Source of the DNA: Isoetes taiwanensis
Taxonomy: Eukaryota > Streptophyta > Lycopodiopsida > Isoetales > Isoetaceae
NCBI GenBank assembly: GCA_021234155.1
Contig: JAJEKV010000237.1
Coordinates: forward strand, 558,001-622,000
Reading direction: 5' to 3'
Length of the DNA stretch: 64,000 bases
Part shown: positions 11,685-61,679 of the stretch, in pieces
How the letters are laid out: each line of letters opens with the position of its first letter
How positions within the stretch are numbered: the stretch's first letter is position 1
Made by a program: the position numbers and the translations under genes
Notes under the pieces: generated by a model
Databases searched by the model: none
The model's input: only the letters and a program-made list of their open reading frames with translations
What the model was told of the DNA's origin: nothing

Positions 11685-11688
11685 TTAC
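11685..11688. other. Left copy of target-site duplication TTAC
   Basis: TTAC directly precedes the left terminal inverted repeat, and the same four bases directly follow the right one at 20,957-20,960. They are in direct, not inverted, orientation, as expected for a target-site duplication. Confidence 0.75.
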
Positions 11689-11710
11689 GGGTAAAAGCAT
11701 GAAAGGGTGT
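11689..11710 (+). repeat. Left terminal inverted repeat of the 9.27-kb transposon
   Basis: Begins GGGTAAAAGCATGAAAGG. It is the reverse complement of 20,935-20,956 except for T/C at the twelfth base. Confidence 0.9.
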
Positions 11711-11726
11711 CTATAAATGTAGCCCT

Positions 11727-11752
11727 TTTTGTACATATACATATGTACAAAA
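11727..11752. repeat. Subterminal 12-bp palindrome containing GTACAT
   Basis: TTTTGTACATAT, a two-base spacer, then its exact complement ATATGTACAAAA, 17 bp inside the left terminal repeat. GTACAT is the motif that recurs through the element, so this is a candidate transposase-binding site. Confidence 0.7.
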
Positions 11753-11936
11753 TGCACATTTTTGGAATAACTGTCATCATGATCCGCTAGTAACTGCCAT
11801 GATTAATGGCTATCCACTACTCTGAACCCGCAATTATCGGATTTTGAAATTCTTTCCCAAATTCTTTCTTGGTTTGCCTCTCGTTCACTATCCCTTTGCC
11901 TTCTCGCTTGAATTCGATCGAATTCTTCATCTAGCT

Positions 11937-14900
11937 ATGGCCCCAAAACGCGCCCCCGGATGAGTGCTTGCTCATCACCACGCCAAGCAAGAAGCCGGTG
12001 CTTCCCGTGGGTGGATTTTTACCTCCAAGGAGTTTACGTTTGGGTTCCGAGGTGATCCAAGCCAAAGACCTCCGTGATAAACATGTAGAGGCCCACATAC
12101 CCAACCTAGAGATGGTTATGAAGCGAGGTATGGGGTGACGCCTCCAAAAAACAGACGAGGATTCAAGGAAGGGAGAATCTAGAACGCATGGAAAGATGAT
12201 TTTTTTAAATATTATGAATTGGTTTATGGCAAGAAACAGGTTACAAACCATTATATTTCTACCTATTTTGCCAGAGCATTTGCTCTTCACTTGAAGGGAC
12301 GGCTTGTTGATTGGATGGACGTGGCTAGGACCGCCAAAGATCTTGCCAAAACCCTCATTTTCGGGCGTTAAGGAGGACCCTACAGGTAAATCCTCAACTA
12401 TCAAACAGGGACATCGATTGCGGTAATATTAGAGCCCTGGGTTATTCTAGATCAGATGTTGACACAATAAAGCAGTTACTTAAGCATGGGTTGGAGGAGA
12501 AAACTAACCTATTGAATGAAGTAGAAGCATTGGAAGAAAGAAGGAGGGATGCATTGAAGGTCATCAGCCGGATTGAGGGTAGAAAGGATATGCTATCCGA
12601 AGATCTGCAGCAGATCCGCCGAGAAAATAGATGAGACAAAAGCAGAATTTGACAAATTGTCCCGGGATCCTGGCTGGAAATCAAGTTATGTTGGAGTATT
12701 GAAGTACAAGTTGGAAGACTTGGTTATGAGTAGACATGATAAAGAGCAAAGACTCTTCTAAGCTAGACATTGGTTTGCGGGGAAGCAACTAAAGAAATTG
12801 AAAGGCATGAAATCTTAATTGAACAAGCAAAGGAAAAACTTAATTGCATTGAATTGGTTCAGCAAAGGCATTCACAGATTTTGGATTTCATGGGGAGAGC
12901 AGGACCTATTGTTCTGCACCCGAGGCCCTACCCTGTAGGAGCTACTTCTATAGAGCAGTTCATCACATTCAGTTCATGTACCTGTTGTGGCCAAGGCTTT
13001 GGCAAAACTGGTTTGTTGCTGCTAGCTCCATGCAGAGATGCTTATTGCCTCTTCTGCTTGTGTTATCTGGTCCATGAAAGACAGAATTGCATAAAAGGTT
13101 GCATCTGGGATGAGGGCATTCGAATTCAGCTTGGTTTCCCTGCTGTGAAAGGTATGCATTGCTCTCAACTAATTTAAACTTATATTTCACTTAATTCATA
13201 TTTGTTATTGTAATCTGCATAGTTCTACATGTATGGCTTTCAGTGCATTGCTATTCCTTGTACATGTATAACTTTTAGTGTACATACATGTAGAAAGCAG
13301 GTACATATGCATATATTTGCTTGTTTATTGATGCTTTTATTTTTGAGCTTGGACTGCAGTTGTATCAGTTGTACATGTCTCTAATGGAGTCTACATCTGC
13401 AAATAGATGTACATGCATTTATTTTTAGAGTGCATCTGTAGATGGATTCATAAGTATGTGCATTTTTTACATATATGTGCTTTTTTTTGGGCATAGATCT
13501 ACATTCCCTAACTGGATACCTGGGTACATCTGGATACATCAGTGTACATCTGGGTACACTGATGTACCTTTATGTACATTGAGGAACATGTACATGTACA
13601 TTTGGCTATAGTTAAATGTAGTTACTTACATTTGGTACATTTTATGTACATTTTATGTACATGCTTGGCAGAATGTACCAGATATTTCTCATTAGTTCTG
13701 TTTTCATGTTCTTTTATGTCTATTGAAATTTAGATCATTTGTTTGTTTGCAGATGAGGCTGTTCCTATCCCAGAAGCAGCTTTAATGGCTGATGTTCTTG
13801 AGCCATCTGCATCGACTCTCTTCTGATTTTTCGAGCATAATAAGCGCATCGAATCAGAGACCCTCTACCTTCCAGCTCCAGATCACCAATGACATTTACG
13901 ATTACGATAATAGAACAATCTGCAACAGTGCCTCCTCGAACATGGCAAAGTGAAGTTGAGGAAATTGAGAGGATGGCACTTGAGAAAGCTAAAGCAGTTG
14001 CAGGTGCAGATGCTTCAATGACTGCTGCAACAGAAACTCCTTCATCACCAAGTGCTAAATTAGTAATTGGAGAAGCTAAGAAAGATTCAGCTTCTGTCTC
14101 AGCATCATCTGCAGGTCCCAGTTCTGGACCTATTACAGAAGAAGCTACAAAGGAATCAGATCCAGATTTTATCCCAGGAGATACCAGGGAAGAGGAAGCT
14201 GAGTTGGTAGTTGAGTCCACTCCAAAGAGGAGGCAAAAGAATGCTGGTGATGGCACTCCAAGAGGAAAAAAACAGGCAAAATCTCCAAAGAAAAAAAAAA
14301 TGTCCTCCTAAAAAGAAAAATCTCCAGGCAAAAAAGTGCCACCACCACCTAGAAAGAGGTATGTCCAAGATGAACTAATTTTGTTAAACATCTCAGATTT
14401 ATGATAATTAACCACATTTTTTTTGTACATAGGACACGATCACAGGCCGTGAAGGAAGCTGATCCTGATCCTTCTGAGTCGGAACCGGAAGAGGAAGAGG
14501 ATGAAGATCTACATGTGATAACAAATAAGGTGCAAAGAATCCACGTAAGATGCTTTGAAGCAGGTGATGAATTTACAAGGTGAGTAATATACAATTGATT
14601 ACAATAGATATATTCTTTTGCTAATGCGTTGTTGTTTCCTTGTACAGTTTAGTGAACCGACTGAAAAGGTTGGTTCCATTCACTCCTTATAGGGATTGTC
14701 CTCCTAAGCTGCACCCTCTATCTTTCAAAGTGATGTTGACGAAGTTCTGCTTGGAAGGCTGGACTTGACCTCTAAGATGGTAGATGTGTGCGTGGGAGGT
14801 AGGCTAGCATTTCAACATATTTATTTTATTTCATTCCCTAAGTCACTCATCTTATGTATTAATATGTATTACGGATTTGTGTGCGTGTACCTTTGTAGCG

Positions 14901-15710
14901 ATCTTCCATCGATTGGAAACACAAGTTTTTACTGGTTCGTAGGACACCTTCCGAATTTTGTGAATTCCCTCAAGAACATGGGGGGCGGATGCACGTAACA
15001 CTAACATAAAGGAAGGGCTGGATGGCATTTTCATTGCAAGATGCCAATACATATTTGTTCCAATTCTGCAAGGCCCAAATGTGGCATTGGCAATACTTGT
15101 GCTTGCTGGTCCGATGAAAAGCTCTTGTCCATCTATAGCTAGCCCAAGTATACAGATCCTCTCTCCTGTCAAAGGCTATGTACCCGATGCTAAAGTGGTC
15201 CAGAAGTAAGTATGAGTTTCTGTTTTAGTTTTATGATTTGATTATTCTCATATTGCAATTTCTTATGCTTGATTTATTCTCACATTGCAATTTTTGCGGG
15301 TTTCATAAGCTTGTGATCAATAACATGATGCTCGGATCCAACAGCTTAAACCATGGTAGGAAGAACTTTGATGCTCATGTGTTCTGTCCTAAAATGCCAG
15401 AAACTAGTACCAGCAACCCTTGCATGTACATTGTGGCTTACATGCACAAATTCATAGATGCCGTGGTTGATGCGACCCAAGCTCCATTTTGTAAGTAGAA
15501 CATGTTATTTTCCTATTAGTTATTTGTTGGTATAGTCCTCTAATACTTGTGCACCATCAGATGACACCCGGTTGGTTCATCGATGCCTATGCCAAGTCAC
15601 GGAGGGATCATCTAATGGAGGCATTAATTGTAGAAGGCTTAGATGAATATACAAGCGCTTGTTCCTACACTGGGGTAGATAGTCCCTTTGACTTGTTTGT
15701 GAATTACTGA
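11937..15710 (+). pseudogene. Multi-exon accessory gene of the transposon: coiled coil, Cys-rich knuckle, Ulp1/C48-like protease
   Basis: The ATG at 11,937 (MAPKRAP) soon needs a one-base shift to read DECLLITTPSKKPVLPVGGF. A second frame gives WKDDFFKYYELVYGKKQVTN and HLKGRLVDWMDVARTAKDLA. From 12,440 a coiled coil follows (LEEKTNLLNEVEALEERRRD), with a frame change near 12,625. Then CTCCGQGF, CRDAYCLFCLCYLV and CIKGC form a RING-like Cys cluster. Introns look real (13,152-13,752, 14,359-14,432 and 14,581-14,647). A charged low-complexity exon (13,889-14,311) is followed by the protease part: CQYIFVPILQGPNVALAIL, NSLNHGRKNFDAHVFCPKMP, and TSNPCMYIVAYMHKFIDAV. These match in order the 'IFVPI..HW', 'DSLNH' and 'CGxY' blocks of SUMO-protease-like C48 enzymes, but the expected His reads Asn. 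The last exon ends FDLFVNY-stop at 15,710. At least three frameshifts mark decay. Confidence 0.55.
13230..13690. repeat. GTACAT-rich intronic array
   Basis: The intron between the Cys-rich exon and the next holds more than a dozen GTACAT or ATGTAC words in loose array, for example GTACATCTGGATACATCAGT near 13,534 and ATGTACATGTACATTTGG near 13,588. Such density is absent from sequence outside the transposon. Confidence 0.75.
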
Positions 15711-16804
15711 GTTTTGTATGAGCCATGCTCAGAGCTTCTTTGTACTCAATAAGTAATGAAAAAAAATTAATTTATTTGGCTCACTTACACCTATGCAAAT
15801 AACAATTGTGTAATTATCAATGTGTTTTCTCAATTGTGTAATCTGAAATGTAATTATAAATTGTGAATAGACTCTCAAGTGTTTTGTTGCCGACAGTGAA
15901 TCATCTAATTCAGGGGAGAAAGCTCATTATCTTTGACTTAAATTACGTGGTTGGGCAAGAGTGTGCACAAGAATGAAAATATTAACTCAAGATACCAAAA
16001 GATCGAAGAAAGATGAGCTTCAATTCAATATAGGAAACAGGTTTTTTTTATCCGCAGCCGGGGTTAGCATCCTTTGTTTGCATTTGTAAGAGAAGGGTTT
16101 GATGTTGCCATCGGTCTTCACTCACTTCTAAAAATCTTCTACCAATTGTGGATCAAATTTGTGATGCTTTTTCCATAAATTTGAAGTTTGTTTACAGCCG
16201 GGGGCGGTGTTGGACTCTGTCACACAAACACCCCACTTGAACCTCAAAGGGGTTGTTTGTGAAGCCATTAGCTGTGGTATGGAAAGAGTACCCCAGTACT
16301 ATGGAAATACGAGTTTTGATCGATGACGAGAGATACAAATCCACGAATCGTAGGAAGCTACATATGTCCTTTCTCTTGGACACCAATATTAGGGGCAGCG
16401 GTTTGTTTGTCATGGAGCTCATTCCATGGCTTAATGGATTGAAAATGGCTGAAGATGGTATAGTGTATGTAAAAGAGCATCCAATGACTAATGCAGCCAG
16501 ATAGCATATCGAAAGCGGTGGAAAATATTTTCTCGGGCAAACTATGGCAAAGAACTTGGGTGCTCTGCTGCCTAAATTTAGTCAATATATGGAGCAAGCA
16601 ATGGAGAAACTGCCGTCATGTTATTGGCCTCTCGAGTGGCCCATTGTTGGTACAGACTAAAACTGATGTACAAATTCAAATGTTATGAATATATGTATGA
16701 AAGTTTTTGTTCATTGCACTTGAGTACTGCTTTTACTTGTCTTTCTTATTGGTACAATTATGAGTGTGTATACATAATTAAGTCAATCTTCATTTGCTTT
16801 GTAG
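15711..16804. other. 3' flank of the protease gene plus unresolved coding-like sequence
   Basis: 15,711-15,780 looks like a 3' UTR (AATAAGTAATGAAAAAAAAT). From 16,253 to 16,500 an 83-codon open frame (KPLAVVWKEYPSTMEIRVLI) and, near 16,540-16,650, another frame (KNLGALLPKFSQYMEQAMEK) look protein-like but could not be joined into a family. They may be exons of a second plus-strand gene that ends at 17,151. Confidence 0.35.
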
Positions 16805-17151
16805 ATGAATGGACTGAAACACAAAAGACTATTATGAAACTAAGAGATAGAGTTCTGCTGCACCCAGAGGTAATAGAAACCAACACAAGCTGCAAGCACA
16901 TAGGGTTGGGGACCGATTATCGCCTCTATACTGCTGTTCCTGGACTGTGGGAAAAGGTTGACCAAATTGAAAACTATGAGGAACGAGCAACCACAAAATG
17001 TATATTGGCAGCAACTCACTTGTTGCACAACCCTTGGGGGAAGGCACGTGTCCGGGAAGATGAAGGCCATGTAGGATGGAAAGGTTTGCCGGCGGCACGA
17101 GCTATAGAAACCGCATGGACTACTGCGTTAGAGGAAGACATGATGCAATAG
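16805..17151 (+). CDS. Last exon of a plus-strand transposon gene, function unknown
   Basis: An AG acceptor (TGCTTTGTAG) at 16,795-16,804 opens a 115-codon frame with no internal stop. It begins DEWTETQKTIMKLRDRVLLH, contains CKHIGLGTDYRLYTAVPGLW and EERATTKCILAATHLLHNPW, and ends LEEDMMQ-stop at 17,151. It faces the transposase stop codon 410 bp away, so the two genes converge. I do not recognise the family. The uninterrupted frame contrasts with the broken exons around it. It might instead be the C-terminal exon of the protease gene if the stop at 15,710 is a decay product. Confidence 0.4.
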
Positions 17152-17557
17152 TCATAAGATATCAGGCTCCTACTGACATTTTGAAGCTAGGCCATGAATT
17201 ATGAGCCACGCTCACTTTCAGGTGTGTTGTATTTATGTCCACAATATAAATATATGAACCATTTGTACATGAAAACCTGTCCATTTCTTATCTTTGCCAT
17301 GACTGAAACTATTTTTAATGTTTATGTAATTCAACTTTCTTATGTTCAATTCTAATCAACTTACACTTAACAAATATCTCTGGAATGTACAACAGATGTA
17401 CATAAGATGTACATAGGATGTATATATTATGTACATTGATGTACCTAATGCACTATTGAAGTAGTCCTTGTCATGTACAATGAAAATTTGTTCAGTTCTT
17501 ATCTCTTATATGAACAAAGTATTACAATATTTTGGACGAAAGTACCACAGATCTGAC
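17152..17557. other. Convergent intergenic spacer with GTACAT motifs
   Basis: Lies between the two convergent stop codons. A run of GTACA-containing words (ACAGATGTACATAAGATGTA, then more) occupies 17,385-17,445. AT-rich, consistent with paired 3' UTRs. Confidence 0.5.
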
Positions 17558-20500
17558 TTAGTCCAAGTCATCTACAATTGCTGGAAGTTGTGATAACAAT
17601 GTCTCATGGACTTCATATGGCAAGTGAAATGCTGTGCTTGCCCCCTTCAGCTTGTGTTTTACTTTCTTGAATGGGATTCGAACCCCAATCACAGATTCTG
17701 CAGGTACCAAAACATTCTTAGTAGGAAGCAGTTTATACTTATTGTGGCAGCCTGGGATTAGTTCATAATATTGTCCTTCAATGACACTAGTGCCAGCAGA
17801 GTAATCATTTCCATAGTCATCAATTGAATCTTCTTCCAATGCATGCTTTTCCCTCGGTGCACATGATAACATAGTATGAAACACCTTCCACATTGTCGGT
17901 GTCGCAAAAGACACAAATACATCTGAAACTCCTCTGGTGTCATCTAAACCGACCTCGTCTTACGATACAAAACATCCACATCATTTTCAGCTTCACCACA
18001 AGAGGCAATATGATCGTGGGCTCCAAACTTTTAGAGACCATTCTCCACAATGTTTAATGTTCTCACAATTCAACCAATTGAAGTTAATGCAAGCATCACA
18101 AAAGCACGAGAGTGGTCTCAGATAGCAACTTTGTTGGATCTCGCTGGGTTTATAGTTGACACGTAGAATGTATCTGCACGAGTACCGGTAAAGTCTTGCA
18201 ATTGAATGCTTGCTGCCTGTTCACATCTGTTTTCCAACCTCCCAAAACACCCTTTCACAATCCAGATTCCTTGGCCCTTAAAACCGCACAAATTTGTTTT
18301 ACTTTTGATCCACGGCATGCCATTTTGTTTTCTCTCGCTTTCGCTCTCAAGCCACAACTTTGCTATACCAGCCCTCGCCATCATGTGTGCCTTTCCCATG
18401 GCGGATCCAAAGAAATTCCATATCACTCGAATTTTATTTTCAACATGGTATCTACAGATTCCATACCATGCCCGTGCAGATTTGAATTGAGATGCACAAC
18501 CATCCGACCACACATAATGAAAGTTTATGTATCCACCTCCATTATTCTTAAGCCACCCCAAATGTAATTTAAAACCATGTTGCACAAAATGAGTGTCATG
18601 CTTTCTGTCACTGTTTTTTTAAGCTTACCTTCTATTTTCATCATTGAAATATGGACCAAAATACTAATTTGATCAGGATTCCAATGCTCGGATTGCACTT
18701 CTGTCCATGGTTTCAATGTGTAGTTCTCTGCAAAGTCAACAACAGACAACACACTATTATCCGGGAGTTTCTCAACACATCTTTTAAACTGTTTGCTCTG
18801 CCAGTGTGCTGTAAAGTTATGATCTGTAAACTTAGCAAGCTGATTTTTCATGTTCTTTAACAAAGCAGATGCTTTGTCATTCGATCAACTAATCTAAGCC
18901 GGATGTACCTTTTTGGATGGCTCATTGACATATGCATATACTTGCCGATCCACATTAAATTCCATCTTCCTCGTTTTGGGCCGGATGTCGAATTTCTTCA
19001 CTCCACATTCATCACATTCGCCTTTGATGCATTTTAGTTTATGCCATTCATCCAGTCACAAATTCTCGCAAAACTGTTGACCTCCACAAGATACTAACAT
19101 TATCAAAAGTCTTCTTGTTTGCTTGACATACTCCATTGTTTTTCTTTGGGATGCAACCATTGCAGCAGCAAGTGCAATTAACATGTAGGGATCTCCTCAT
19201 ATCATTGAAGGCCTTTAAATACGGATCCGCTTGCTCATGTTTGACACAACAACATGTGTTTCTCTCCTTCAATTTCCTTATGCAATCGGGTTTTGAGATA
19301 CTGAACTGTCAAGGCGAATTTTGGTATCAGGATTCTGATATACAAACTGTTGATAAAGCTCAGACTGCAATAACAAAACCATTAAAGACCATGTTAGCAA
19401 AATGATGTCGGCAACCAGATGCCAAAAGAGTATTGAACTATACTATTGTACAATTAATGTATGGTCTATGTACATAAAATGTCCATCCAACAGTTCCATC
19501 GACTGTTATCAGACATCTAATGTACATCTAATGTAATGACCAACAGTTCCATCGACTCATTCTTGTACATCCAATGTACATCCAATGTACATCCAGTGTA
19601 CATCTAATTAATGTTCCAATATTAGTACATCACATTAATGTTACAATATTAGTACAACTAATGTACATATGTCAGATTTGTTTGGCTTCATTACCTGAAA
19701 GTACACTAAAATGTAAAATGATGTAATTTTGATATTCAAGTACATGTAAATGCAGCTGCATGGACATGTAAGTGTTAATGGATGTACATCTAAAAAGTAC
19801 CTAATAGCACATCACTGCAAGATTTTTACGCCATTGTGTAAACAATGTATAAATGTAAACAATGTAAAATGCAATACATTTCATGAAAACCATGTGTATT
19901 CATTAACGAGGTCACTTTCGGAATGTAACTAGAATGTCTGAGGAAGAAAGTCATGAAAGAATTTTGGAAGAAAACATAATCTCCAAAACTGAATTGATTC
20001 AATTACAAGAGCAAACTGTGAGATATCAAGGTATTGTATTGCTTGTGTTCTCCTCTTCATGACATCTCTAACCTTTGGTGAAACTTTGGTATTGTCAAGC
20101 CAAAATTCACGAACGACATTTGATTGAATCATCGATTCTATTTGATCTTGGCATCCTTCTGCCAAAGCCCATACATTTGCTCCACTTAATGACATTATCT
20201 TCCTTCTTCTTGCTGCAGCTTTGGATAAATTTCTTGGTTGTATCTTTAGCAATTTTGAAGAAACATTCTTGTTTATATCTCCTTTTTTTCCAACAATCAT
20301 TGATAATGATGAATGTTTTGCAGCCAATTTATCTTTGCTATTAGCGGAATTTTACTTCTTGAAGCCCATCTTTCAAGTTTCGATCATTGATTTCATAACA
20401 ATAACTTCGGAAGGATTTCCAATTATGTGTTCGAAAACAGGGAAAAAGTCGTCATCTTGCAACAAACGATCACAAAAACTAATCTTTGATCCGACGGACG

Positions 20501-20639
20501 GCGTTTGCAAAGAATCGAGGATGCAATCCACCGACTGTCAACACTTATTTGCTTTATTTGTTTTGTGGCATAACACCGGCCAATGTCGGCATACTTACTT
20601 TTTAGAACCATCACTTCCATTGGAATTCTCACCCTCCAT
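17558..20639 (-). pseudogene. DDE-like transposase with Cys-rich domain (VDFAENY / HDT / SDG type), frameshifted
   Basis: The start at 20,639 gives MEGENSNGSDGSKK, followed by a plausible GTAAGT donor. The next exon reads SVDCILDSLQTPSVGSKISF. Then come AAARRRKIMSLSGANVWALA and VVREFWLDNTKVSPKVRDVM (20,200-20,050). A Cys-rich block near 19,270-19,150 (ERNTCCCVKHEQAD, NCTCCCNGCIPKKNNGVCQ) precedes KGECDECGVKKFD (about 19,030). The catalytic-looking core is LSVVDFAENYTLKPWTEVQS (Asp near 18,737), KHDTHFVQHGFKLHLGWLKN, YVWSDGCASQFKSARAW (Asp near 18,504) and WNFFGSAMGKAHMMARAG. The C-terminus (17,914-17,558) ends QLPAIVDDLD. Aspartates in the first and third blocks suggest a DDE/D nuclease. A third acidic residue may be lost where MMARAG stands. 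Frames change several times and introns hold GTACAT repeats. Confidence 0.7.
19440..19800. repeat. GTACAT array within the transposase gene
   Basis: Repeated words such as TGTACATCCAATGTACATCC and TGTACATCTAATTAATGTT occur at least ten times, with a few-base spacing. The array lies between the N-terminal and Cys-rich coding blocks and is probably an intron. Confidence 0.75.
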
Positions 20640-20934
20640 GAACAGAATGAAATTGATTTGTATTTCTTGTAGATTCAATTGGCATGTGTTTGCTTCTGGA
20701 ATTCGTTCGGTGTTCGTCCTGTGAAAGGGGGGAATTTCGGAAAGGGAGGGACGGATCCATTCGAATTGGTTCGGTGGTTCGGTGGTTAACCAAGAATTTC
20801 GGGGGGAATGTCAGGGATGATCTTGCAATCATTGCATATCTGACACAAAATGACAAACCATAGTATCTTGATGTACATCTAAAATGTACCCCAAAAAAGC
20901 ACAAATTCGTCCTTCAATTCAGTACGATGTACGT

Positions 20935-20956
20935 ACACCCTTTCGTGCTTTTACCC
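20935..20956 (-). repeat. Right terminal inverted repeat of the 9.27-kb transposon
   Basis: Reads ACACCCTTTCGTGCTTTTAC plus CC on the plus strand. It mirrors the left end with one mismatch and is followed directly by the TTAC duplication at 20,957-20,960. Confidence 0.9.
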
Positions 20957-20960
20957 TTAC
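20957..20960. other. Right copy of target-site duplication TTAC
   Basis: Matches 11,685-11,688 in direct orientation. Confidence 0.75.
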
Positions 20961-47763: not shown

Positions 47764-49432
47764 CAACTAATTATCTATAGAACATTCGGAACTAGGGAAT
47801 CTCGACCCCGTTCAAAAAGTTTACAGCAACTGATAGATGAAGAAAAAAGATGGGCAGAAGTTTAGACAGTCTCGACTCTACCAAGTTATACGAGCAAATT
47901 TCCGCAGAAGACGTGGATATGTAAAGAGCAAATTACATGTTCTCTTTTAGATGCAGTTCATGGAAGCTACTTAGGATCAATCAGATTTTTGTGGGGACCA
48001 TAGTCGATCTCAAAGCTACATGATTCTGCATTGATTAATGATAAGCTTCAATGGATCAAATTTGGCCATGAGTAGTACAAATTCCTATAACTGCCTTTTG
48101 GTCATTATGGAGTGGAAGCTGAACATGAACCAGAAAAGAAAAGTTATACCAAGGAGTTGAAGTGTCTAAAAAAAAACCCAGTCGAACCTAGCATCCTAGG
48201 TCTGACATCAATCCTCGGTCAATCCCAAGGATTGTATTATCAACCCAGATTCAAACTTACGTAAGAATTATCTGGTACTTATTGTCCTTTAGCCACAAGA
48301 ACCTTTAGAAAATTTATCAAAACAAGTTACAACGTATCACTTTTCCTTCAACAAACAACAATCACGTAGTTACATGGTCCAAAGCCTGTTTTACATAAAA
48401 CATATTGAACAATTGTAGTCCTAAGCCATCGAATACCATTTTTCCTCAAACCCAGCGTCATTTTCAGAGTGCAGCATGATAAATATACTTTCATATAAGA
48501 AATAAAAGCCTTACAAGCCCTATGATCCAAGCTCCATGGTCCAAATCTTTTCTTGCACAAATGCAAAGTCACATGTCCTTTAGTCTCTTATAGTTCAATG
48601 GTCTCCATGTCTATCTGACACTTCTACAAATATGTACCAGACAGTATCACATATGCATTTTTGCAAATGCTATATGCCAATTGCCCTTAGCATGACTAAT
48701 TAAAGATTTAGTTTCCATATTTGGGGCAGAAAATAGTCTAAGAATAGTTGTTAGTTTCAAATAGAGCACGGAATCAAGTATATTGCATGGTACGTTTGCA
48801 TGCAGGCGTAGGCCTTGCATGTCGAAACATGAACTTCTCCTATTCCTAGTTTGAACTTTTAGAAATCTTTACCTTTCTTGTTGAAAGGCAGTTGTTTAAA
48901 CCTTTAACCTCTTGATCTAGTTTTCATATCCTCAGCATTTAGCCCTACTGGATAGTTACCTCGATCTATGATGTAGCATGCGCCATGCACCAGCTAAAAC
49001 CATTCTTTGACAGTCTGCATGTCAAGTGTGCAGTTTATTTAAAAGAAACCTTTTGCTCTTTTGTATTCTAAACCTGCATAGTACACAATTTTTGCATGCA
49101 ACTTTCTTTCATTCTGTCCTTTTCTTTTTCAGCATACATCGTACCCTTTTATGTTATATCCACTCTTTATTAGATTTCAACTGTTATGCATGCCTTTTCC
49201 CACAGCAAGACTATTATTTATGTAGTTTTGTATTTACATTTTTAAGCTGTTACACTTTACAAGTTCGAGACATTTCTGTGGCTATTTTTGACATAATACA
49301 TGTAAAACGTGTTTAAACAGGAGTCACTGCATGCACACATTACTTAACATTTTTCCTTACTGCTCCAGACGGCCATGTATTGAACTTTATAGCACAATCA
49401 TATTAACAGCCATTTATTCTCATTTCTAATCC
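47208..49432. repeat. 2.2-kb duplication, copy A
   Basis: Matches 50,916-53,124 in direct orientation from AACCTTCAAATTATGTATTT to TTATTCTCATTTCTAATCC. Large stretches are base-for-base the same (for example 48,130-48,780 against 51,820-52,470). It contains the second copy of the triplicated segment (47,729-48,143) with a 31-base A-run. No gene is supported inside it. Confidence 0.95.
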
Positions 49433-50915: not shown

Positions 50916-53124
50916 AACCTTCAAATTATGTATTTATTTTTTTGCCATTGTATCTATACAATGGACTTTCAATGTTTTAAGAACAACTTCTAAGGTTTAA
51001 TGCCATTTATTGCTGCACTCATGCCATGTACGCCTTGAGGAAAGAACCTAAGAAAAACATAGTATTTCTCAACATGTAAACATAAATGTATTGGTCGAAA
51101 TTTCCATTGCTGCCTTGGCAAAGGGTTTTGGTTTGGCTCCACAAAGGTTTTTACCCAATGCTGCTTAAAGCCAACATGTTTGTCACACTATAGCAATTGA
51201 AGTTTCTCAAGGTAGACCTTTATTTTCAATTGAACCAACCGTTAAATAAACATACTGCTCATTTCGTTTCAATTTTTCATTTGGGCTCAAATAATTCTCA
51301 CTTGCTTTTTTTTAGAGGTTGGCGATCATATTGCCATTTTGGCCTTTTATGGCTATCACAAAATTCATTTCCTTAGCCCTTATTTGCTAAGTCTAACAAT
51401 CCTTTTTCACTTGGTGCAATGCATGGCATTTACTTAATTAAAAAAAAAAAAAAACGGCTACAACTAATTATCTATAGAACATTGAACTAGGGAATCTCGA
51501 CCCGTTCAAAAGTTTACAAAGAATGATAGATGAAGAAAAACGATGGGCGAAGTTTAGAGCGGTCGACTCTACCAAGTTATCTGAGCAAATTTCCATGAAG
51601 GCGTGGATATGTAAAGAGCAAATTACATGTTCTCTTTTAGATGCAGTTCATGGAAGCTACTTAGGATCAATCAGATTTTTGTGGGGACCATAGTCGATCT
51701 CAAAGCTACATGATTCTGCATTGATTAATGATAAGCTTCAATGGATCAAATTTGGCCATGAGTAGTACAAATTCCTATAACTGCCTTTTGGTCATTATGG
51801 AGTGGAAGCTGAACATGAACCAGAAAAGAAAAGTTATACCAAGGAGTTGAAGTGTCTAAAAAAAAACCCAGTCGAACCTAGCATCCTAGGTCTGACATCA
51901 ATCCTCGGTCAATCCCAAGGATTGTATTATCAACCCAGATTCAAACTTACGTAAGAATTATCTGGTACTTATTGTCCTTTAGCCACAAGAACCTTTAGAA
52001 AATTTATCAAAACAAGTTACAACGTATCACTTTTCCTTCAACAAACAACAATCACGTAGTTACATGGTCCAAAGCCTGTTTTACATAAAACATATTGAAC
52101 AATTGTAGTCCTAAGCCATCGAATACCATTTTTCCTCAAACCCAGCGTCATTTTCAGAGTGCAGCATGATAAATATACTTTCATATAAGAAATAAAAGCC
52201 TTACAAGCCCTATGATCCAAGCTCCATGGTCCAAATCTTTTCTTGCACAAATGCAAAGTCACATGTCCTTTAGTCTCTTATAGTTCAATGGTCTCCATGT
52301 CTATCTGACACTTCTACAAATATGTACCAGACAGTATCACATATGCATTTTTGCAAATGCTATATGCCAATTGCCCTTAGCATGACTAATTAAAGATTTA
52401 GTTTCCATATTTGGGGCAGAAAATAGTCTAAGAATAGTTGTTAGTTTCAAATAGAGCACGGAATCAAGTATATTGCATGAATGCGTTTGCATGCGGTATT
52501 AGGGCCTTGCATGTCGAAACATGAACTTCTCCTATTCCTAGTTTGAACTTTTAGAAATCTTTACCTTTCTTGTTGAAAGGCAGTTGTTTAAACCTTTAAC
52601 CTCTTGATCTAGTTTTCATATCCTCAGCATTTAGCCCTACTGGATAGTTACCTCGATCTATGATGTAGCATGCGCCATGCACCAGCTAAAACCATTCTTT
52701 GACAGTCTGCATGTCAAGTGTGCAGTTTATTTAAAAGAAACCTTTTGCTCTTTTGTATTCTAAACCTGCATAGTACACAATTTTTGCATGCAACTTTCTT
52801 TCATTCTGTCCTTTTCTTTTTCAGCATACATCGTACCCTTTTATGTTATATCCACTCTTTATTAGATTTCAACTGTTATGCATGCCTTTTCCCACAGCAA
52901 GACTATTATTTATGTAATTTTGTATTTACATTTTTAAGCTGTTACACTTTACAAGTTCGAGACATTTCTGTGGCTATTTTTGGCATAATGCATGTAAAAC
53001 GTGTTTAAACAAGAGTCACTGCATGCACACATTACTTAACATTTTTCCTTACTGCTCCAGACGGCCATGTATTGAACTTTATAGCACAGTCATATTAACA
53101 GCCATTTATTCTCATTTCTAATCC
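50916..53124. repeat. 2.2-kb duplication, copy B
   Basis: Direct copy of 47,208-49,432, offset about 3.7 kb. It is nearly identical except for a patch at 51,474-51,600 with many one-base losses and a rewritten 20-bp stretch near 52,480. It ends exactly where LINE-C coding sequence begins at 53,124. Confidence 0.95.
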
Positions 53125-55765
53125 TTTAAGGAAGAACACTTGTACGCCTTCACAATGCGACTACGGACATCGCTAAGCACTTGCGTATCTGAAAAGAGCT
53201 GTCCCTTGAAGATGAGGAGATTTCATCTCTTCCAGATGGACCAGATGATCCAAGCAGATGCTAAGTGGAAAGCCCTCTTTGCCAACTTGTCCCAAGAGCT
53301 AGGATAGACTGACAATAGGACCTGTTGACTATTCAAGTCACAATGGAAAAGACTCAGAAGCCACTGCCAAGCAAGTCGAACATGGTGACACAAGAAAAAG
53401 CAGTGCCAATTGTCTCATCCCTCTGCCGGCAAAGAGGGCAAATCTCAGAGACTCCTGGACGAAATCGATGAACAATAGTGTTTACCCGCACGCATCTATG
53501 AGTGATCTGCCACCATAAAATGGATAGCTTAGGATGAAGCAATTTATCCCATACCCATCGCCAGACTGCTTTACGATGAGGCTCGGGGATAACTAAAGGT
53601 CACTTTGGCGATGGAGGCAACACCTCAGGATGAAGCAGGACCACATACATCAAGTGCACCAGGTGCTCCTCCTTAACACTGCCATGAACCACCCAGAGCT
53701 GGGGAGCCACGTCTTGTGGGTGTGGAGGAAGCGTAGCAGCTACTTTTTCCCAAATGCCCCGGACCCAACGAAGGAGAAGGAACTTCAATCACGTGAACTA
53801 TCTTGTCTCATTATACCATGCAGATACCGTGAGCACACCTGCTGCTCGCCACCGACGTTGCGTCAATGGATGGACAGAAGAGACCAGGGGACAATCTGCC
53901 TGGCCGTCACCCAAAGGGATCCACCAACAACGGGCTGTAGGATCTGTGTGGGCCATTGGATGGAACTGAAACAAAGTGCGCACAGTCTCCCAAGCAGCTA
54001 GCAACCCCTTGAGGAAAGGAGCTGCATTAGGATATGGAGAAAGTGGATAGAATAATGCCCATGGGAGGAGAGGCTTAATGGATGGAGAGCCAAAGGAAAT
54101 GCACATCTGTAAAGACTGGTGAATGAGACGCAGACCTGGAGAATTATCAGCATTATTGAGAATCCGCCATATGAACTTAGAAATCAACACCTTGCTCTGG
54201 AGAAGAAAGTGAATCATCCCCAGCCCCCACAAAGTTTAGGCATAATGCACTTCGCCCAACTAACTTTAACATCAGCTCCTTCTTCAATGCCACCCCAGAT
54301 GAAGTTCCTGACAGTACGAACAATGAGCTGCATCTTTGTCTGCGGTGTCAGCAAGATGGATGCCATGTAGACATGTGTACCACTCAAAACTGACTTTGCC
54401 ACAGTTACACGACCAGCCATGGATAACTTAGCCGTGGACCACCAGAACAAATGTCTTTTCAACCCCTTAATAATGACATTCAGCGTCTCGGATGAGAGGT
54501 GTATACCAAGCTGGAATGCCTAGAAGTTTAGTTGCCTTCCCATGAGGAAGAGCCTTCTATGGAAATGCAACCCACGGAAGGCGGCCTTTGGAGAGTCTAG
54601 GGCCTGAGGCGATACACTTTTGCCATCCCACAAAGATACCGAAGCCAAAGAGAAGGCGTCCAACAAGGAAATGGCATTCTCGCAAATTACGCTCATCGCC
54701 ATTAAGAACAAGAAAGTGTCATCGCATGCCGATTCTGGATCTCTTGTGAACCATTATTCATGGGAAGACCATGCGGGATGCCTTCACGCACCTTGCATGA
54801 AGAATACGAGAAAGAATCTCCGCCACAATTGTAAAAGCGGTGGTGCCAAGGACAGACCCTAGCGAATGCCACGTCCCACGAAAAAATGTTGATGGTTCTC
54901 TTTGAAAAGAACTGAAGAACAGCGAGAATAATGAAGTTTCATAACATTTGTTGTGGCTGGGCACCAAAACCAAGCGTAAAGGCCTTTGCTCCAGGGAAAC
55001 TCCGATCAACAACTTGTCATATGCTTTTGCAAAATCCAGCTTCAAGTATACAATGGGGTAACCATGCATTCTAGCCCAATAGAGATCCTCATATGCTGCT
55101 GCCACATTATTCAAGATACATCGGCGAGGTAAGAAACCTGACTGCGTGGAAGAGATGGACTCGGTAAGCATGCCACAAAGCTTCTGAGCAAAAGCTTTAG
55201 CAAAGATCTTGTACACTGAGGACAACAAAGTAATGGGGCGCCAATCTGAAATGGAAGAGGGATCCTTATATTTTGGAATAAGGGAGATGCAACCAGAGTT
55301 GAAGATTTTGTCCAGAAGCTCAGCTGGATCTGAAATAATACGCCCATCCTGAATCTGCAGAGACTGAAGAGATGCAGCTAGCTTTCTTGTTTTGGCAGCT
55401 CTGAAGAAAAAACCTGTGCACCGGTCTCCCTTCTTGAACCATTGCAACCCAACCTTAATGTGAGCAAAGTGCACCTATTCAGATTCCATCTGCCGAATGG
55501 TATACAAAATTTGCTTCTCCACATGACCATCTGATGGGGCAACAGACTTGCATGCCTCAAGTTGTCGATAAAAGCCGTGAGAAGGCTCTCCGGTTAGCGA
55601 AGCCCGTTCCCGACCCCAACCTTTAGCAAAAGACTTCCGGCGCAGCGAAGCGAGCATCAACAATACACGCCATGCTTGTGTGTCGAGAGAAAAAGTGAAC
55701 CGCGTCGTCTCTGACCCGCCAAAAAAATCATCATCCTTCAAGAAAAATTCTAAGGCGGTAGTGCA
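53124..55765 (-). pseudogene. LINE-C ORF2, C-terminal part: reverse transcriptase and zf-RVT
   Basis: From 55,474: VHFAHIKVGLQWFKKGDRCT with GFFFRAAKTRK, the usual linker before the RT. Then SGCISLIPKYKDPSSISDWR, PITLLSSVYKIFAKAFAQKL, STQSGFLPRRCILNNVAAAY and VYLKLDFAKAYDKL. The catalytic YADD box is changed to ACDD (ACDDTFLFLMAM, about 54,720). Later blocks include MAGRVTVAKSVLSGTHVYMA and VRNFIWGG (54,430-54,260). The zf-RVT part reads HPKLSILWWQITHRCVRVNT and ICPLCRQRDETIG (53,540-53,410). Many frame changes mark decay. Confidence 0.8.
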
Positions 55766-56888
55766 CAAAAAAGAGTGTCATGAATCTTGTCATCACTTAA
55801 GTAAAATGAATTTTCTTCAATAGCTTTCGATCCCGAGCTTTTGTCTATCCTATCGTAATATGGCGAGAGAATTGTTATCGGTCATTGTGCGGTCGGCTCG
55901 AACCTCCCTTTGTATTTTTATGTTGTAATTCTCTGCAAAATCAATTACAAAAATAATGGTGCCATCTTTGATATTGTCCAGGCAACTCTTGAATTGCAGG
56001 GCCTGCCATCTAGACCTGTAATTATGTGGCACAAATATCTTCAATGTGGAATACAGGTAGGAAATAAAAAACCTTCACTGTCGTTCTTTTGTAAGACAGT
56101 CTAAGAACTAGCTTTGGTTCTTTCATTTTTTTTCCCCTTGCCAGTTCAAGTCTCGTCTTATGTTGCAGTTTCAGACTATATCCCACCAGCTGCCTTAGCT
56201 TTCTTACTTTTGTTTCCCTTCTTGGTGGCATTGGATCTTTTCTTTCTGCTGCCACCTGGTACTTTCTTGGTAACCACGATGTCGCAACTCCACCCGGCAT
56301 CTTCTGTCTCCACTGGAATCTATAACAAGGTCCGCAGCATAAAACATAAGATTACTGCAAGTTGAAAGCAGAAAAGCAGAAGTCAGTGGATGTCAGCACA
56401 TCTCAGCTCGTTGCAGTATGCATTAAAGAGAGTTTTACCTTTTCAAACATTTTCCATTCAAGCAAGAACTCATGATCCTCTCTTTCGCTTGGACATATAG
56501 GAAGACTTTGTATGCCACAACTCTGACATTTTTGCATCAAGCAGCCATGTTTATACCATTCTTCAACCTCGACCCTCGAACTTCATTTGTTTGAGTCATA
56601 TGTGTGTTGGCTGACTAGACACTTCTTGCCAGGTCCACAAACCTCACAACAACAACACTTGCACTCTTCCCCATGAAATCCAGTTTTCGCTGATTTTAAA
56701 GCATTCAGACCTACTCTGGCATACTCCAACTTCATATAGTATATGCAACAACAGGTTTTCCTTTCTGATACTTTCTTTACATAAAGAGGTTTCAACTTCT
56801 CGAAAGCCTTTAAGCAAACAGGGTATTCAGGGTGTGCCTTTTTGTATTGTACCAGCCTTTGCCGAGTCTGCGGCCGCCACCAGAACAT
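55766..56888 (-). pseudogene. Second fragment of the VDFAENY-type transposase, inside LINE-C
   Basis: Minus-strand reading gives YPVCLKAFEKLKPLYVKKVS, ERKTCCCIYYMKLEYARVGL and CKCCCCEVCGPGKKCLVSQH (56,830-56,610), then KCQSCGIQSLPICPSE. A Lys-rich stretch (RKKRSNATKKGNKSKKAKAA) follows, then YRSRWQALQFKSCLDNIKDG, IIFVIDFAENYNIKIQREVR (about 55,940) and SFYLSDDKIHDTLF (about 55,780). The Cys-rich block, the DFAENY block and the HDT block come in the same order as in the 11.7-21 kb transposon. The SDG block and C-terminus are missing, and no terminal repeats are seen, so only an internal piece was captured or kept. Confidence 0.7.
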
Positions 56889-56899
56889 TGTACTGCCTA

Positions 56900-57057
56900 T
56901 TGATTACTGCAGCAGCTTTGTAGGCATCCTCTTTCTTGCATTTATGCGCTTGCAAACAAATGAAATCTGAGTCCCACCTAGTCAGGGCCATGGACAACCT
57001 GCTCCTTTTAGTAGGGGAGGAGGCAACCCCCCGCACATTCTAGGAGATTAACTTCAT
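56900..57057 (-). pseudogene. LINE-C ORF2, endonuclease start
   Basis: MKLIS-stop-NVRGVASSPTKRSRL is the usual MKLISWNVRG opening with Trp changed to a stop. DSDFICLQAHKCKKEDAYKA corresponds to the 'DFICLQE(H/T)K' block with the catalytic Glu replaced by Ala. The rest of the endonuclease is interrupted by transposase sequence. The ATG overlaps the ORF1 stop as ATGA. Confidence 0.75.
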
Positions 57058-59735: not shown

Positions 59736-61188
59736 TTGTTATATGCAATGCAATTAAGAGGGAGAACCATCTGCTCTGTTGCATCATCAGCACCTCCTCC
59801 TCCTCTTCCAAGAGCCAGGTCTAAGTCCAAAGGCCCCATTATCCATAGCCAGCCAGAAAATACTTCTTTGGGAGGCAAACATGTCAGATCTATGGAGGGA
59901 GGTTCATGGATCATGGAACAATTAAATCAGGCCATAGATGCTATAGATTCTTAGCATTAGAAAGCCTTCTTTACATTATGCCATACCTCTGACCACTCTT
60001 AGAAGGTGGTTGAATGGCCAAACTAAAGAGAAATTTGGGGCAAAATCAAAGGGATTGACAAAGGAAGAAGAGGAAATCCTTGTGAGTTGGTGTATGCCTC
60101 TCATTCTACCTGGATCTGTTAAGGATTTTGAAGGTAGAGGTGTAACTTTGGATCTGTTAAGAGAACGAGTTGGCGACATGTGTATTCATAGAGAAACTAG
60201 TTTTAAAGATGGCCTACCAGGTAACAAGTGGTGGAGAGGTTTTAAAAGTAGACACCCTAAAGTTGCTTTAAGGTCTGTTGAGTGTGTGGAAGTGCAAAGA
60301 GTAAAGGCTATGAATTCTACTAACCCGGATAAATTTTACTCCACTTTCAAAGCCTTGTACAATGACTTCCATTTTGAGGCATCTTTCATTTTGAGGCATC
60401 TACCATTTCGAACTGTGATGAAATTGGAATTCAGGATGGCCATAGGTCTAGTATGAGGATATTGACAAGGAAAGGGATTAGAAATGCCAATTTGACCATT
60501 CCCAAAAATAAAGAATGGCTAACTGTTTAAGCTGTATGAGTGCATCTGGTTTTAGAATGCCTGGTTTGTATGTATTTAAGGGAATAAAACTTAAAGATAG
60601 AGATTTGATGGTGGATGTGGCATGCTTGGTAGCGTTTTAAACAACATTCAAGAATTTGAGAGCTAGGTACATGCATAAAGGTAAGGTTGGTGAGCCATCA
60701 AAAGAGGATTTGGCTACCCTCGTATCTAGTGCAATTGTGGAATCTTTGACAAGGCCTAACATTGTTGCAGGTTTTGCAAAAACAAGAATATGGCCCTTCA
60801 ATGACAAGGTTGTACTTCTTGACCCTTATGCTTATAATGTAGTGACTTCGAAGATGAATTAGAAGATCTTGGTAACAATGATGATGTCGTTGCTCAAATT
60901 ACGCAAAAGTTAGTTGAAAATATGATGGCTCATGATGGTGTGGGTGTTGCAGCAGAAATTGCGCATATGCTTCCTCGTGAACATATTGTGGATATTCCAA
61001 ATGCTGTCCCTAACGAAGAACGGGTCAGAAGTATGCTTGTTCCTAATGCTGCCCCTGAACAAGTGCAAAATGTTGTTGCAGGTGTGCAAAACCGTGTGCA
61101 AAATGTTCTTGCTGGTGGGCTAGCAAAAGCTAAGAGATCTAAGTTGTTGGATGCCCTTCAAGGTAGGTTGTTTATCACTTCAGATTAG
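59736..61188 (+). pseudogene. Pogo-like (CENP-B/Tigger-type) transposase relic with the DDE core deleted
   Basis: SIRKPSLHYAIPLTTLRRWL (59,960-60,020) is a psq-type helix-turn-helix. KGLTKEEEEILVSWCMPLIL and LPGNKWWRGFKSRHPKVALR (60,050-60,270) form the Tc5/CENP-B-type second domain. A remnant of the DDE_1 domain follows (MSASGFRMPGLYVFKGIKLK, near 60,540). Most of the catalytic part between 60,430 and 60,540 is missing. The C-terminal block reads RPNIVAGFAKTRIWPFND (60,750), the 'GIwPfn' end of DDE_1. The tail (to 61,188) has MAHDGVGVAAEIAHMLPREH and ends LLDALQGRLFITSD. Frame changes near 59,950, 60,450 and 60,860. No terminal repeats were identified. Confidence 0.75.
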
Positions 61189-61545: not shown

Positions 61546-61574
61546 CATTAGTAAGCTGTCTACTTTGTATAAGA

Positions 61575-61658
61575 GAAAGACCTTTTGCTTGCCATTCTGG
61601 GCTGTCAAGTATGCCTCCGCACCGTTGACAGCCCAGAATGGCAAGCAAAAGGTCTTTC
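61575..61658. repeat. 34-bp perfect hairpin
   Basis: Arms 61,575-61,608 (beginning GAAAGACCTTTTGCTTGCCA) and 61,625-61,658 are exact complements around a 16-base loop. The arm shares CTTGCCATTCTGG with the foldback at 24,756-24,862. It lies directly beside the SINE. Confidence 0.95.
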
Positions 61659-61679
61659 ACTCAACGTGAAGACAGGTTA

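Follow-up and report, generated by a model that had tools for sequence, protein, structure and literature searches.

A multi-copy transposon of the quillwort Isoetes taiwanensis with 4-bp target-site duplications, a predicted DDD transposase and a putative convergent gene for an FCP1-like HAD domain

The window analysed here, a stretch of 64,000 nucleotides from the quillwort Isoetes taiwanensis (contig JAJEKV010000237.1, positions 558,001 to 622,000), contains what is very probably a decayed, end-complete copy of a multi-copy cut-and-paste transposon with two putative genes, one for a predicted DDD (three-aspartate) transposase and the other for a protein with coiled-coil, RING and HAD parts that may have an accessory role. 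The element has defined ends and many copies in the genome, its insertions are flanked by 4-bp duplications without preference for TTAN, an empty site was identified, and it belongs to a group of at least four related families, which we numbered for convenience. An earlier interpretation of the window from its letters alone (the sequence-only reading) had seen in it a complete DNA transposon whose two gene blocks are convergent, and the end-matched copies, 4-bp duplications and empty site described below uphold both this description and the ends assigned to the element.

Re-reading of the sequence bore out the 22-bp terminal inverted repeats (TIRs), which have a single mismatch, and the TTAC on both sides (Table 1). 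Copies were searched for in 1,658,258,908 bases on 1110 contigs, and the best 40 of 566 candidates for the left end and the best 40 of 552 for the right end were scored, each set including the window copy itself as one row. All 40 best-scoring left matches begin at query position 1 or 2 (11688/11689), and all 40 best-scoring right matches finish at query position 257 or 258 (20956/20957). With the window copy excluded, all 39 left ends and all 39 right ends listed lie within one base of the predicted termini, indicating that the boundaries at 11,689 and 20,956 are conserved among the copies listed. The sequence-only reading had named missing copies or differing boundaries as its refutation, and it passes this check. 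Six full-length copies measure 9.08–9.29 kb, with a substitution identity of 92.5–96.1%. The terminal stretches of the window copy (11689-11888 and 20699-20956) are 95–100% identical and gapless in four of five compared copies, unlike the comparisons of whole copies with the window copy, each of which contains 156–195 gap openings; the gapless termini could each be accounted for by selection acting on the ends, by short copies held in common or by more effective polishing.

Target-site duplications of family 1, the family of the window element, were examined at 13 insertions with both ends in the fetched DNA, eight of which were picked by hand (same contig, plausible spacing). L014, with six mismatches in the right TIR, and L017-L019 and L040-L042, for which at most one end was found, were left out of this count. 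An exact 4-bp duplication was present at 10 of the 13 insertions (TTAC, TTGA, AAAT, AGGA, TTGG, GACG, TGTG, TGTA, GTGG and TTCT). A TTAN-type target, which had been suggested on the grounds that a 4-bp duplication fits TTAN-targeting groups, was rejected, as the only TTAN among the ten exact duplications is the TTAC of the window itself. The empty site was found on contig C1049, where a family-1 copy is nested in a transposase gene of family 3. When the two flanks are joined through a single TGTG, a frame is restored that is open through the DFAENY, QSLHWRNDQCTILVHIT, SDDREHDT and WSDGC blocks of this gene, and keeping both TGTG copies breaks the frame by four extra bases. On contig C1059 (L023:424-467), two family-1 elements are directly adjacent, the right end of the first meeting the left end of the second with zero bases in between; a search of L052 for the far (right) end of the second element found none. 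Within the window element, GTACAT units recur at 11-base spacing (13624-13673, 17387-17436 and 19448-19668), and other copies contain nested insertions (L018:5954-9649, L019:4678-5642) that, as judged from their frames, would be a Copia-like polyprotein and a fragment of pogo/DDE type.

The minus-strand transposase blocks recognised from the letters alone, DFAENY, SDGCASQ and HDT, are all present, the first two at the positions given in Table 1. A search of the genome with the transposase protein yielded 5384 candidates, of which the best 150 were scored; the first-look numbers for two transposase probes, 5384 and 4341, are rough and may overlap. At least four related families were distinguished. 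Besides family 1, these are family 2, which comprises a diverged remnant elsewhere in the window that had been missed in the sequence-only reading as well as L043-L051, L053-L055 and L062-L065; family 3, with the gene on C1049 that hosts the family-1 copy and L034, L035, L056 and L057; and family 4, with L059. The transposases of families 2–4 are 34–47% identical to that of family 1 over the aligned pieces. Common to all four are the blocks DFAENY, QS.HW..DQ, SDD..HDT..VQH, WSDGC..QFK and WNFF...HGKG.HDG, within the last of which the family-3 piece stops. The HGKG.HDG block may resemble uncharacterised animal proteins.

Kinship of the families is also visible at the termini. Terminal sequences read in families 1, 2 and 4 start with GGG, mostly GGGT, and families 1 and 2 share the terminal sequence GGGTAAAAG(C/T)A with small variants. 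The family-2 terminus is GGGTAAAAGTATGCTGGTGGG, with occasional GGGC and GGGTG variants, and 37 of the 39 other listed copies start within five bases of it, the remaining two starting eight and nine bases early. Family-2 elements are approximately 7.4–7.5 kb long, and two of two copies have a 4-bp duplication (TGTG and ATCA). Ten of the 13 other copies that match the element side of the family-4 terminus, GGGTGTAAATATGG, stop within two bases of it. The Repbase rule for non-autonomous elements is quoted as equal duplication length and one mismatch within the 11 terminal bases (PMC4455052). This rule would group families 1 and 2, whose first 11 bases differ at a single position.

Above curated cut-offs, the transposase matched nothing in Pfam, PHROGs, NCBIfam or the PDB sequences, and the hits below cut-off were to unrelated families or to families of unknown function; the lowest Pfam E-value was 0.0053 (Pro-kuma_activ, with a piece of L059). 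Relatives outside this genome were not found in scans of viral contigs and genome contigs or by tblastn against phages; the scans require short exact peptide patterns, so this shows little. No hAT, MULE (Mutator-like element), CACTA, Harbinger or mariner family occurred among the Pfam matches at E-values up to 0.5–1, and the duplications of hAT, CACTA and Harbinger elements are of lengths other than 4 bp. Mariner elements duplicate 2 bp, and MULEs have duplications of 7–12 bp and relatively long TIRs (PMC10741241), in contrast to the 4 bp observed here. The earlier placement of the transposase outside the usual plant superfamilies thus agrees with both the Pfam searches and the duplication length.

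A first AlphaFold attempt with 620 residues reached a predicted local distance difference test score (pLDDT) of 36.3 and was not used in fold searches. For the transposase core, modelled from a 26-row alignment from which L050:357-944 had been removed as misaligned (part of it was re-used in the family comparison), the pLDDT was 63.7 and the predicted template-modelling score 0.69. The core model has strands at residues 49-60, 78-89, 92-102 and 133-141 in the order strand-strand-strand-helix-strand, with D55 on the first strand, D139 on the fourth and D180 just ahead of a helix at 182-196. In VIA-align, the top 17 of 50 rows were retroviral integrases with Z-scores of 7.3–7.9, and the remaining rows were integrases, Argonaute or PIWI proteins. 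From the conserved blocks and this model, we infer a DDD transposase with an RNase-H fold, in which the DFAENY, SDGC and HDG blocks would contribute the catalytic Asp residues.

An integrase-like fold, which was the best structural neighbour, raises the question whether the element is of the Ginger type, with a Gypsy-integrase-like transposase and Ulp1. Ginger1 and most Ginger2 elements have a 4-bp duplication, as the element does, and the integrase-like catalytic fold that is predicted for it (PMC2836005), and a weakly Ulp1-like block is present in family 1. In Ginger1, a Ulp1 or OTU domain is fused to the transposase, whereas the accessory domains are predicted here in a separate convergent gene. 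Ginger termini are expected to be TGTNR, as opposed to the GGGTAAAAG ends observed here, and neither CCGG/CCGT (Ginger1) nor RTATAY (Ginger2) targets (PMC2836005) occur among the ten duplications. Furthermore, no integrase-core family was among the Pfam matches and the predicted third acidic residue is Asp. We excluded a Ginger element, which would be highly improbable, on the ends, the targets and the transposase sequence.

The nearest known superfamily is Sola, to which the element was likened by published descriptions and not by sequence. Sola elements have TIRs of 11–1124 bp and are mostly 2–9 kb long, some exceeding 15 kb (PMC10741241), and the TIRs and lengths of families 1 and 2 lie within these ranges. 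The 4-bp duplications in families 1 and 2, the large size and the seed-free land plant host are further similarities, and a DDD transposase, predicted here from three Asp blocks conserved across the four families and from an AlphaFold model of modest confidence, would be another. The element may be an ordinary Sola member, perhaps of Sola1, which is reported from the moss Physcomitrella, with nothing new about it except the species and the cargo; we give this slightly less than an even chance. DDD transposases, 4-bp duplications, variable TIRs and lengths above 15 kb are described for Sola, with occurrence in moss and Capsicum (PMC10741241, PMC9033089), and all features that could be checked fit. 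The GGGT ends and the lack of an AT-rich target preference are unlike Sola. The Sola2 elements of slime moulds produce AT-rich, AWWT-type duplications (PMC3627910) as opposed to GACG, TGTG or GTGG here, and the passages of the three Sola papers (PMC10741241, PMC9033089, PMC3627910) make no mention of a RING or HAD gene. A distinct, as yet unnamed plant superfamily, characterized by GGGT ends, a 4-bp duplication, a transposase of the DDD type that is rich in Cys towards its N terminus and a long-kept coiled-coil/RING/HAD gene that would rewire host control, is possible, and we propose it tentatively.

The clearest predicted domain of the convergent gene is an FCP1/NIF-like HAD domain (PF03031), which scored above the Pfam gathering threshold in family 1 (L017, L018, L039, L040), family 2 (L053, L055, L062, L064) and family 4 (L059), with E-values from 3e-10 to 3e-21. 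Judged by these matches, all three families contain a putative gene or genes for such a domain convergent to the transposase. HAD and transposase matches were paired when listed matches were at most 12 kb apart, using the best 150 HAD rows per list. In family 1, at least 61 of 150 listed HAD matches lie near a transposase match, 60 of them convergently and one on the same strand; in family 2, at least 15 of 150 listed PF03031 matches, a list that includes host genes, pair with a transposase, all 15 convergently. Among the listed matches of both families, 75 of 76 pairs are therefore convergent, compared to a chance expectation of about 0.3 pairs per comparison and to 1 and 0 pairs in mismatched pairings. 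The relative found in the PDB was UBLCP1. Like FCP1/UBLCP1/SCP-type phosphatases, the element HADs retain the first Asp and the two blocks RPG/IWSS and DD..YK, and unlike these they are transposon-borne. HAD phosphatases have the catalytic motif DxDx(T/V). This motif is absent from the four aligned element HADs, in which the second Asp is replaced by Asn (DLN or DIN), and the host FCP1-like gene L060 retains DLD. Because of this replacement, the element HAD may be a binder rather than a catalyst.

In family 2, the HAD is preceded by what appears to be a coiled coil and by a RING-type finger (L064:5575-6735; zf-RING_2 E 5.7e-4). A further zf-RING_2 E-value in this family is 0.0025, the Cys/His spacing fits RING, and six RING sequences in the PDB matched, among them AMFR, RLIM and RNF13 (E 0.0058–0.049). 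An apparent coiled coil and RING (E 0.0046) were also seen in family 3, and the family-1 copy L040 gave a zf-RING_2 E-value of 0.43. The coiled-coil matches of the convergent gene in Pfam are weak, and a blastp comparison of the family-1 coiled coil with that of family 2 found no homology (E 0.60). For the plus-strand gene, the sequence-only reading was correct about coiled-coil-like and Cys blocks, and it missed the HAD domain and the likeness of the Cys block to a RING finger. Its third proposal, an Ulp1-like block, is weakly supported: no C48 family was found in Pfam, SENP7 was the only match in the PDB (E 0.31 and 0.38), and the block was not found in the two family-2 elements examined. 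Ulp1/C48 proteases use a His/Asp/Cys triad, of which the block keeps the Cys while the His of HW is replaced. Coiled coil, RING and HAD are presumably joined in one spliced protein.

The main rival explanation for the convergent gene is that the elements captured RING/HAD from the host, in one event or in several, and carry it as a passive passenger, like the gene pieces in plant MULEs. The exchange of the second HAD Asp for Asn would agree with this, as would the existence of DxN-type HAD genes for which the 5 kb that were read contain no transposase match (L058:25-948 and L061:4132-5100). These genes have a DMNGVLL motif, and similar matches occur on many contigs, so they may represent a different repeat or a family of host genes. 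A passive fragment would not be expected to be retained as long as is indicated by HADs that are only about 30% identical between families and yet occupy one and the same convergent position in three of them. The order coiled coil-RING-HAD is moreover kept in family 2 and, in degenerate form, in family 1. We consider a mere passenger unlikely, and favour a retained accessory gene.

Several observations weigh against a transposon with a DDD transposase and a RING/HAD accessory gene. The majority of the listed copies are broken, 3 of the 13 family-1 pairs (on C1059, C1035 and C926) have no exact duplication, and the duplication check covered family 1 and two family-2 copies only. Confidence in the core model is low at residues 142-150 and 171-179, adjoining two of the three Asp residues, and the remaining four core models had pLDDT values of 46.0–58.3. 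VIA-align Z-scores under 8 may reflect a common arrangement, and Foldseek of the core model yielded no match at E ≤ 0.001 against PDB or BFVD; the PDB list above this value is headed by gelsolin and includes Hermes transposase and RNase HI. RING scores are under the Pfam gathering threshold (best 20.5 versus 27.3 bits), and the Cys block of the window copy has no Pfam RING match. A HAD tree with seven rows leaves one capture versus several unsettled, a point that would also suit the passenger explanation, and no family-3 HAD was found in the fetched stretch. The breakage of copies is perhaps partly due to assembly error, because the assembly was built from nanopore reads and polished afterwards (PMC8566536), and small indels in repeats may be artefacts. 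The window copy is decayed, though end-complete, with six stops interrupting its HAD match and the third acidic block of the transposase in a different reading frame.

Table 1. Positions of the family-1 element, its parts and neighbouring features in the window (position 1 is the first letter of the 64,000).
Feature	Positions	Strand	Remarks
Whole element, family 1	11689..20956	.	9268 bp
Target-site duplication TTAC, left copy	11685..11688	.	
Left TIR	11689..11710	+	GGGTAAAAGCATGAAAGGGTGT, 22 bp
Convergent-gene start, N-terminal block and apparent coiled coil	11935..12761	+	frame-broken; blocks also in L042:737-1663
RING-like Cys block	12968..13117	+	degenerate in family 1; clearer RING pattern at corresponding place of family 2
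Acidic/basic linker block	13955..14308	+	
Two exon blocks with weak SENP/Ulp1 likeness	15015..15489	+	position of catalytic His not His
FCP1/NIF-like HAD domain (predicted)	15914..16510 (about)	+	decayed; E 9.0e-60, 56% identity to L017 copy
C-terminal block of convergent gene	16805..17151	+	start approximate; like blocks in L017 and L040
Transposase gene (putative)	17558..20639	-	several exon blocks; frame-broken; start codon predicted
Transposase blocks	near 20595-20639, 19929-20351, 19048-19308, 18525-18884, 18118-18618, 17558-17959	-	
GKGTHDG block	18377..18397	-	third catalytic Asp (putative); other frame in window copy
SDGCASQ block	18487..18507	-	second catalytic Asp (putative)
DFAENY block	18720..18737	-	first catalytic Asp (putative)
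Right TIR	20935..20956	-	read inward GGGTAAAAGCACGAAAGGGTGT, 22 bp
Target-site duplication TTAC, right copy	20957..20960	.	
Reverse transcriptase frame beyond family-2 remnant	54761-55474	-	PF00078, E 1e-12; LINE-type by reading
Family-2 transposase remnant	55768..56903	-	diverged

Elsewhere in the window, two pairs of 300-bp stretches (48000-49110 and 51690-52802) are 100% identical at a distance of 3.69 kb, which suggests either that this part was duplicated in tandem recently or that the assembly is at fault here. A 37-bp inverted repeat with 97% complementarity and a 16-bp loop is located at 61572-61661, and an open frame on the plus strand (59947-60453) has a weak match below cut-off to HTH_Tnp_Tc5, the DNA-binding domain of Tc5-type transposases (E 0.053).

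In the mechanism that we propose, the transposase would bind the GGGT ends, cut the element out and join these ends to target cuts staggered by 4 bp. More speculatively, the coiled-coil/RING/HAD product might serve in the nucleus as an accessory factor, tagging host proteins or binding to them in the manner of a ubiquitin ligase and by binding or removal at phospho-sites, and might thereby help the element to transpose or be expressed in spite of host control. Ulp1 or OTU proteases are already known from DNA transposons, and Mutator-like elements with Ulp1 are likewise plant transposons with a domain of the ubiquitin/SUMO pathway (PMC2836005). A transposon with both RING and HAD was not found in the open-licence literature as judged from titles and the openings of abstracts. 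If the families do form a distinct superfamily, the second gene would rewire ubiquitin and phosphorylation control of the host to the benefit of the element, and a RING finger and an FCP1-like domain in one transposon would, if confirmed, represent a new route to this control. The group is apparently large and none of the transposase families in the searched libraries matched it, indicating a sizeable blind spot in this lycophyte genome.

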